The translations under genes were made by a program, and so were the position numbers. The notes below the pieces were generated by a model. It ran no database searches, was not told where the DNA came from, and was given only the letters and a program-made list of their open reading frames with translations. Positions 3,909-12,810 of a stretch of 55,182 bases of DNA are shown here, piece after piece. Every line of letters begins with the position of its first letter. The stretch's first letter is position 1. This stretch comes from Nanobdellota archaeon (GTDB lineage Archaea; Nanobdellota; Nanobdellia; Woesearchaeales; JAHIVG01): the NCBI GenBank assembly GCA_018816705.1, contig JAHIVG010000032.1, forward strand, positions 1-55,182. The letters are read 5' to 3'.

Positions 3909-4226
3909 ATGCTGAAACAGATCAATGTGAGGCTTCCCGTATTACTTGTTGAAAAAGGGGAAGAACTTGTACGGAAAAGGGGCTATGCCAACATCCAGGA
4001 CCTCATACGCTGTTCATTGCGCGAGGAGATCGATGCCTTCGAGCAGGAGGAGGCACTGAGGAAGCTGGATAGCTTGAGAGGGATAGCCACCGGAGAACCC
4101 ATCACAAAAGAGGAGAAGGAAAGGATAGCAGAAAATATGACCGAAGAAAAATCTAATGAGATGATGAAAAGGTACTCTGGACCTCTTCGGGGAAAAGGAT
4201 CCTCAAAAGATAAGAGAATTCATTGA
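3909..4226 (+). CDS. Ribbon-helix-helix (CopG-like) regulator, probable antitoxin
   Basis: 105 residues. The N-terminus (QINVRLPVLLVEKGEELV then YANIQDLIRCSLREEI) matches the beta-helix-helix DNA-binding fold of CopG/Arc antitoxins. The remainder is charged and helical, as expected for a toxin-neutralising tail. A TATA box (CATTTAAATATC, about 3877-3888) lies near 25 bases before the ATG, so the mRNA is probably leaderless. Its 3' end overlaps a convergent PIN gene by 74 bases. Antitoxins of VapBC pairs usually sit upstream on the same strand, so pairing with the PIN protein is inferred from adjacency. Confidence 0.75.
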   Translation: MLKQINVRLPVLLVEKGEELVRKRGYANIQDLIRCSLREEIDAFEQEEALRKLDSLRGIATGEPITKEEKERIAENMTEEKSNEMMKRYSGPLRGKGSSKDKRIH

Positions 4227-4578
4227 AGTCTTTCTTGTTCCTTGTGACCAGGCAGTCGGCTTGGCCTTTCAACGCAAGTACCAGATGAAGCGTATCTGAT
4301 AACGATTTTCCTTTGAGAATCCGGGCTCGGATTAAGTCTTTTTCTGTGATATGGATTATTTTGTGGAAAAGGATAGTCTCCAACATATGATTGATGAACG
4401 ATTGGTCAATCTTTCCCTCAAGCTCCTTCAATACCAGTATCGATATCAAGACTTCAATCTTTCCTGACATGGCTAATCTGAAGAACTGATAAGCGTGTTC
4501 CCCCAAGTGCTTAGAAGGCTCTTTGCGGTCGAAGAAGTAATCCAAGAACACATTGGTGTCGACGTAAGCTCTGATCAT
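4153..4578 (-). CDS. PIN-domain ribonuclease, probable toxin (VapC-like)
   Basis: 141 residues from the preferred start MIRAYVDTN; an upstream Met at 4608 would add ten residues but breaks the usual PIN N-terminus. Acidic metal-binding residues are visible: D in AYVDTNVFLDYFFD, E in VLKELEG, D in SLSDTLHLVLAL, and D in VTRNKKDF. This is the complete PIN quartet of Mg-dependent ribonucleases. It converges on and overlaps the RHH gene. Either it is the toxin of an unusually arranged pair or the two genes are independent. There is no strong ribosome site. Confidence 0.78.
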   Translation of the reverse strand: MIRAYVDTNVFLDYFFDRKEPSKHLGEHAYQFFRLAMSGKIEVLISILVLKELEGKIDQSFINHMLETILFHKIIHITEKDLIRARILKGKSLSDTLHLVLALKGQADCLVTRNKKDFNEFSYLLRILFPEEVQSTFSSSH

Positions 4579-4663
4579 TCGGTGTAAGCTAATCTGATTA
4601 TTTATCAAACTTAAGCAGGATTTTTCGGAAAATCTATTGATTAAACCGGATTTTTTCAGAGAA

Positions 4664-4675
4664 ACCTTTTTAAAC
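4664..4675 (+). promoter_or_regulatory. TATA box of the tRNA-Ser gene
   Basis: CTTTTTAAAC lies about 27 bases before the first base of the tRNA acceptor stem, the normal spacing for an archaeal TATA box. An A-rich stretch before it could hold the BRE. Confidence 0.6.
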
Positions 4676-4698
4676 CAGGGATATTAACTCTCATTTAC

Positions 4699-4868
4699 GC
4701 CGCGGTGGCACAAATCGAGCTGTTACTGCAGCCGATGTGCAGTCTGGTACTGCGCCGGCCTTGAGTCGAGGCAAGCCAGCCGGTTCCCGCAAGGGTCTCC
4801 TGGAAACCGTTTGTGGAAGCAATGGTTGGGGAATTCAAACCCAAAGGGTGAAAGTCCGGGCCGCGGCG
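4699..4868 (+). tRNA. tRNA-Ser(TGA) interrupted by four introns
   Basis: Exons are 4699-4713, 4743-4765, 4778-4803, 4834-4839 and 4855-4868 (84 bases). The acceptor stem is GCCGCGG/CCGCGGC with discriminator G73, as for Ser. The D stem is GCA/TGC with A14, GG18-19 and A21. The anticodon stem is CCGGC/GCCGG with loop CTTGAGA, anticodon TGA. There is a long variable arm CCC-GCAA-GGG, and a T stem CCTGG/CCGGG with loop TTCAAAT. Introns lie at about 15/16 (29 nt), 37/38 (12 nt), 53/54 (30 nt) and 59/60 (15 nt). Each has a 4-bp central helix with flanking 3-base bulges cut after the second base. Examples are CTTG/CAAG with AG|T and CC|A at 37/38, TCCT/GGGG with GG|A and AA|T at 53/54, and TTCA/TGAA with AA|C and AG|T at 59/60. 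The inner helix at 37/38 is absent (bulge-helix-loop form). The 15/16 boundary is the least certain. CCA is not encoded. A long open frame across it is not coding. Confidence 0.88.
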
Positions 4869-12084: not shown

Positions 12085-12810
12085 ATGCAACCGGTACAGC
12101 ATCAGATGATGGGTTACGATAGAGCAATAACTATGTTCAGCCCAGACGGCAGGCTGCTCCAGGTGGAGTACGCAAAGAAGACCGTAAGGCAAGGCTCCAC
12201 AGCCATAGGCATGGTCTGCAAGGACGGAGTGCTATTAGTCACAGACAAGAGGATAGTGGACAAGCTCGTGGTGCCAGAGGCAGTTGAGAAGATATTCCAG
12301 ATAGACGACCACATAGCTGCAACAGCATCAGGCATAATCAGCGACGCCCGCGTGCTGGTTGAGAGGGCGCAAGTCAAGGCCCAGCAGCACAGGGTCACGT
12401 TCGACTCACCGATCGACACGCTCAGCATAGTCAAGGACATATCAAACCTCAAGCAGCTCTGCACCCAGAGCGGCGGCCTGAGACCATTCGGAGTCTCCCT
12501 GCTCATAGGCGGAGTGGAGAACGACTCTGTCAAGCTATTCGAGACAGACCCCACAGGGATATACTTCCAGTACAGGGCCTCTGTCATAGGCGAAGGTGAG
12601 ACAGAGGTGGAGGAGATGCTCCACAAGGAATTCAAGGACGACCTCACGATCGACGAGGGCATCAAGCTCAGCATGAAGGCCCTCAAGAAAGTCCTGGGAG
12701 AGGAGTTCAAGGCAGAACGCCTCGAAGTCGTGACCATCACCAAGAAGGACAAGAAGTTCACGAGACTGCCCAAGGACGAGCTGGCAAAATACATCTCAAG
12801 GAAGAAGTGA
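12085..12810 (+). CDS. psmA: 20S proteasome alpha subunit
   Basis: 241 residues. The N-terminal alpha signature GYDRAITMFSPDGRLLQVEYAKKTVRQGSTAIGM is intact, followed by VLLVTDKR and the RAQVKAQQHRVTF segment. Alpha subunits form the outer rings and gate of the 20S core and do not carry the catalytic Thr. The N-terminal HQMMGYDRA can act as the gate and supports the chosen ATG. The catalytic beta subunit is not in the window. AGGAGG precedes the start. Confidence 0.96.
   Translation: MQPVQHQMMGYDRAITMFSPDGRLLQVEYAKKTVRQGSTAIGMVCKDGVLLVTDKRIVDKLVVPEAVEKIFQIDDHIAATASGIISDARVLVERAQVKAQQHRVTFDSPIDTLSIVKDISNLKQLCTQSGGLRPFGVSLLIGGVENDSVKLFETDPTGIYFQYRASVIGEGETEVEEMLHKEFKDDLTIDEGIKLSMKALKKVLGEEFKAERLEVVTITKKDKKFTRLPKDELAKYISRKK

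Follow-up and report, generated by a model that had tools for sequence, protein, structure and literature searches.

A tRNA-Ser(UGA) gene probably assembled from five exons in a woesearchaeal archaeon

Can a tRNA gene broken into five exons by four introns, one of the exons only six bases long, still be a working gene? The question is raised by bases 4699–4868 of the window, the term used here for the whole 55,182-nucleotide stretch of DNA that was analysed. The initial annotation placed a tRNA-Ser(TGA) gene of this kind at the locus and ascribed it to a DPANN-like archaeon. The window is contig C74 of a 1.74-Mb draft genome (G000) in 114 contigs, which is 94.4% complete. Relatives of the alanyl-tRNA synthetase (AlaRS) encoded in the window belong exclusively to Candidatus Woesearchaeota, with identities of 46–55%; the host is therefore a DPANN archaeon of the Woesearchaeota, in keeping with the early impression.

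A serine tRNA in five pieces

No tRNA is called by either ARAGORN or Rfam in the unspliced window. When the inserts at 4714–4742, 4766–4777, 4804–4833 and 4840–4854 are cut out, an 84-nucleotide product emerges which ARAGORN recognizes as tRNA-Ser(tga) with a complete cloverleaf, whereas the unspliced locus yields no call. The product adopts a type II fold: an acceptor stem GCCGCGG/CCGCGGC, a D stem of 3 bp, an anticodon stem of 5 bp, a long variable arm and a canonical T loop, together with the anticodon TGA and the conserved T8, A14, G18G19, A21, T33 and TTCRA. All five exons are colinear within 170 bases, and the gene is thus neither split nor permuted. The layout of the locus is as follows.

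4665..4676, +, TATA-like promoter CCTTTTTAAACC, approximately 25–32 bases upstream of the tRNA
4699..4713, +, exon 1, tRNA positions 1–15, GCCGCGGTGGCACAA; agrees with the intronless orthologs
4714..4742, +, intron 1 at 15/16, 29 nt; helix GCAC(A) with (T)GTGC; relaxed, no outer helix
4743..4765, +, exon 2, tRNA 16–37: D loop, 3' strand of the D stem, 5' strand of the anticodon stem, anticodon TGA; from ARAGORN and orthologs
4766..4777, +, intron 2 at the canonical 37/38 site, 12 nt; helix CTTG with CAAG; from the parser and the minimum-energy fold
4778..4803, +, exon 3, tRNA 38–53: 3' strand of the anticodon stem, variable arm, 5' strand of the T stem; from ARAGORN and orthologs
4804..4833, +, intron 3 at 53/54, 30 nt; TCCT with GGGG, inner helix AACC with GGTT, no outer helix; from the parser
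4834..4839, +, exon 4, tRNA 54–59: TTCAAA, six bases belonging to the T loop; seven other genomes have TTCRAA here
4840..4854, +, intron 4 at 59/60, 15 nt; TTCA with TGAA, the T stem as outer helix, inner CC with GG
4855..4868, +, exon 5, tRNA 60–73: T60, 3' strand of the T stem, 3' strand of the acceptor stem, discriminator G73; from ARAGORN and orthologs

The same solution is reached by a parser that performs a beam search with general tRNA positions only and requires a 4-bp central helix for each intron. Left free, it gave these four introns and no others as its top-scoring solution, at 68.9; at 399 random starts in the window with T at position 8 the mean was 17.5 (sd 7.5) and the maximum 41.7. 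A class I reading of the locus with five introns scored 65.8 and was rejected. The coordinates first proposed for the gene thus prove exact over their 170 bases, and the four insertion sites at 15/16, 37/38, 53/54 and 59/60, as well as the 84-base type II product with its canonical T loop and long variable arm, are upheld by ARAGORN and the orthologs, the sites by the free parser too.

The 4-bp central helix of archaeal bulge-helix-bulge (BHB) introns is present at all four junctions, a result obtained in none of 200,000 shufflings of the intron letters. With the cut drawn after the second base of each bulge, a 3-nt bulge flanks this helix on either side in introns 2, 3 and 4, as had been claimed for three of the sites; intron 1 is better drawn as a 5-bp helix, GCACA/TGTGC, with a 5' bulge of 2 nt (2 or 3 nt being possible). 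By the strict definition of the motif, two 3-nt bulges with helices on both sides, intron 4 complies once intron 3 is removed, intron 2 has a minimal inner part, and the outer helix is absent from introns 1 and 3. Minimum-energy folding of the excised contexts produced the ideal motif only for intron 2 (4-bp helix, 3-nt 3' bulge, anticodon stem), and the shuffle z-scores of the folds, −0.7 to −1.6, are weak and insufficient alone to convince.

Covariation provides better evidence for the splice helix than these z-scores. In 25 introns at 59/60, the combination at base 57 and intron base −6 is A/T in 18 cases, G/C in six and G/T in one: A57 faces T in 18 of 18, and G57 faces C in six of seven, the remainder being G-T (Fisher P = 4e-5, a value that is indicative only, as the cases include paralogs and related genomes). 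The T-loop introns were chosen by T stem, acceptor stem and a terminal AG followed by T only; many of the loci came from a pattern that required a pyrimidine at −6, without specifying its partner at base 57. At 53/54, both T48-A and C48-G pairs occur (TCCC/GGGA, CCCC/GGGG).

By analogy with known pathways, the TATA-box promoter would give rise to a single precursor of approximately 170 nt; the archaeal splicing endonuclease would cut four short BHB-type introns out of it, and the ligase RtcB would join the five exons. In the predicted pairing, intron 1 engages the 5' strand of the D stem and intron 3 that of the T stem, so that these arms would fold only after intron loss. Intron 4 appears to be the T-loop counterpart of the intron commonly found in the anticodon loop. 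The T stem, which serves as its outer helix, would form once intron 3 has gone, and this requirement suggests that intron 3 is removed before intron 4.

Orthologs and the tRNA set of the genome

Intronless tRNA-Ser(TGA) genes of 84 nt are found in three genomes of the order, G092, G042 and G059, and align gaplessly with the spliced product at 73, 74 and 72 identities of 84, respectively. Two further orthologs are partly interrupted: the G085 gene has introns at 15/16, 37/38 and 59/60, and the G025 gene at 53/54 and 59/60. Each of the four insertion sites is consequently occupied by an intron in the gene for this isoacceptor from another genome. The introns of the orthologs vary in length and sequence and agree in position and splice geometry. 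These intronless and partly intron-bearing genes bear out the identity of the gene, the number and positions of its introns and its product. The 15/16 intron recurs in the Ser(GGA) gene of G007 and in both Ser(GGA) genes of contig C65 of the host genome, and 53/54 introns with the geometry of intron 3 are present in G025, G011, G342, G316, G075, G242 and G293.

A pattern describing a six-base exon between 53/54 and 59/60 introns matched eight of 353 genomes, the target and seven others, and parsing gave no tRNA in one of the seven (G154); G075, overlooked by the pattern, makes seven other genomes with a six-base TTCRAA exon. The minute exon read from the target alone is thus real and recurrent. 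Four-intron tRNA genes were also encountered elsewhere in the order, namely Ser(GGA) of G011, Val(GAC) of G242 and Ser(GGA) of G342, all with the six-base TTCRAA exon. The initial annotation considered four introns exceptional: this stands against the published literature and fails within the order, where there are at least three further four-intron tRNA genes.

In the host genome itself, the 27 parsed tRNA genes contain 49 introns between them; Ser(TGA) has the highest number, and two genes have none. This census was compiled by searches and from selected loci, its sample is biased towards 59/60 introns, and several of its isotype names are provisional, that of L099 in particular. Nearly all the recovered tRNA genes are disrupted, most of them multiply, and a 59/60 intron occurs in approximately 18 (L085–L102 and others), Ser(TGA) included. 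In this sample the T-loop introns at 59/60, with a 3' end of YGRRAG directly before T60, rival the 37/38 position in frequency. The four-intron state is an extreme of a tRNA gene set with heavy intron gain.

Nine tRNAs exceed the Rfam cut-off in the host genome, and a search with RF00005 at E up to 10 added just a few candidates; relatives give 6 to 39, many of them 30–39. This range suggests that comparable effects may extend to several lineages of the order. The 3' end of the unspliced locus, GTGAAAGTCC, has many short BLAST matches; RNase P RNA was considered as their source and rejected, because the inspected matches are 3' ends of tRNA-Ser genes with 59/60 introns.

A spliced-query search revealed no second Ser(TGA) gene in the host assembly (approximately 94% complete), which disposes of the check proposed at the outset for another such gene in this assembly. 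Apart from short matches and pieces of the target itself, it hit Ser(GCT), a tRNA-Tyr and both Ser(GGA) genes on contig C65. TCA codons are present in all seven window genes counted. As no other Ser(TGA) was found and TCA codons are in use, the gene is probably essential. Of the 18 tRNAs of the genome that were inspected upstream, most are preceded by a TATA-like box at a comparable distance. Near the tRNA, the window also contains two small overlapping genes, 3909–4226 (+) and 4153–4608 (−); the latter is PIN-domain-like by eye (DTNVFLDYFF), and the two possibly form a toxin-antitoxin pair.

A separate peculiarity concerns tRNA-Ser genes nested within one another. At 12428–12803 of contig C65 (L044:1429–1804), a tRNA-Ser gene holds a second, complete tRNA-Ser gene within its variable arm. 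The pattern occurs in eight of 353 genomes from six families, the host included, and the control gave 0. The outer gene is complete in six of the eight (L044, L127, L129, L132, L133 and L134); in L128 (G015) and L131 (G309) its 3' half was not seen within approximately 330 bases, and it may be a 5' remnant. In G000, G133, G154, G344 and G094 the acceptor stem of the outer tRNA differs from that of the inner one and each is still paired, which argues that both tRNAs may be in use. In G000 the inner gene lacks a TATA box of its own. Inserts at L127–L134 share the layout GGATAC, arm a, inner tRNA, arm a', second hairpin, GTATCC, and a search of their junctions found no common strict BHB. Speculatively, processing of the ends of the inner tRNA would leave the outer tRNA as two halves held by arms a/a', in the manner of a split tRNA. 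Some inserts in woesearchaeal tRNA genes thus appear to harbour whole tRNA genes.

Weighing the readings of the locus

The locus is very probably a functional tRNA-Ser(UGA) gene with four introns and its own TATA-box promoter, spliced from one precursor, as far as can be judged from its sequence and that of its relatives. One might instead see a decaying pseudogene, that is, insertions accumulating in a redundant tRNA-Ser(TGA) while an intact copy lies in the missing 6% or so of the genome. The draft state of the assembly, with 114 contigs and 94.4% completeness, lends this some room; every stem is intact, however, splice geometry is found at all four inserts, orthologs keep introns at the same sites, a promoter is present and the same kind of interruption affects most of the other tRNAs recovered from the genome, so that decay is a very unlikely explanation.

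There is a slighter chance still that the gene has fewer than four introns or other boundaries, for instance with introns 3 and 4 as one insert or intron 1 bounded differently. The motif of intron 1 is indeed irregular and its ends are ambiguous by one base, giving a length of 28 or 29 nt. A single insert in place of introns 3 and 4, on the other hand, would take away the TTCAAA that the T loop requires, and the same 6-nt exon is flanked by two introns in seven other genomes; the alternative complete solutions of the parser also score lower. Least weight of all attaches to an assembly or sequencing artefact in the draft contig. The sequence is known from one assembly, and the matches of the BLAST survey include no relative of the same genus, but misassembly does not produce four brief insertions that fall precisely on splice sites and form proper helices, and a paralogous Ser(GGA) gene on contig C65 likewise has introns at 15/16 and 59/60.

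Splicing machinery and known systems

How the four-intron gene would be spliced is a puzzle in itself. The host genome encodes RtcB and one splicing endonuclease gene (PF01974) of approximately 178 amino acids, with both N and C domains, whose best PDB match is 3iey_A, the alpha subunit of Nanoarchaeum equitans. The PF01974 search detected no beta subunit in this genome, though a diverged one may exist. In alignment, the endonuclease is without an insertion found in the N-terminal part of 3p1z_B, which is taken to be the crenarchaea-specific loop; an (alpha beta)2 enzyme of Thermoproteales type bearing that loop was accordingly not found. Among 60 relatives, too, one PF01974 gene per genome is found almost without exception, mostly in open frames of approximately 160–260 codons. 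The loop has been described, and loop-bearing alpha-beta and epsilon enzymes accept relaxed motifs (PMC6379350). Since the accepted scheme ties relaxed motifs to such enzymes, the relaxed introns 1 and 3 sit awkwardly beside a loopless endonuclease.

The literature covered gives three as the maximum number of introns per tRNA gene (PMC8450103, PMC4033280, PMC3293823, PMC4090602), in agreement with the background from which the annotation started. Thermoproteales such as Pyrobaculum resemble the target in having several BHB introns per gene, many of them non-canonical, with a maximum of three (PMC8450103, PMC4033280); the target differs in its four introns, its DPANN host and a single alpha-type endonuclease without the crenarchaeal loop. 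In soil Asgard archaea (Atabeyarchaeia, Freyarchaeia) 92–95% of tRNA genes likewise have introns, more than half of them several (PMC11291895); these belong to another phylum, and the main text of that study, which states no per-gene maximum, leaves room for a four-intron gene. The red alga Cyanidioschyzon merolae, in the part of the source covered, has up to three introns in the D, anticodon and T arms (PMC9602550), and the tRNA genes of an alga cited in PMC4090602 also have up to three; both are eukaryotic, with at most three introns reported in the text covered. Nanoarchaeum equitans shares the DPANN affiliation and supplied the closest endonuclease structure, but has split tRNAs and an alpha-beta endonuclease, whereas in the target the exons are ordered at one locus and beta is undetected. 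Literature searches on four-intron, disrupted or nested tRNAs in DPANN archaea returned nothing relevant. Four introns thus exceed the published maximum of three per gene in the literature covered, which for the soil Asgard archaea means the main text.

More broadly, it seems rather probable that some Woesearchaeales lineages possess tRNA sets more interrupted than the Thermoproteales figures covered here, and that in them a gene holds as many as four introns, a six-base T-loop exon recurs and a lone alpha-type endonuclease does the processing. If true, this would break the proposed rule that couples a broad intron repertoire to an alpha-beta or epsilon-type enzyme with a specificity loop. A four-intron gene with a six-base exon would probe the limits of the archaeal endonuclease, both in the smallness of exons and in the relaxation of the motif, in a lineage for which only a plain alpha subunit has been found. 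It would also explain why standard tools recover so few tRNAs in such genomes, as with the nine above the Rfam cut-off here: the 'missing' tRNAs of DPANN genomes may be intron-riddled genes rather than losses.
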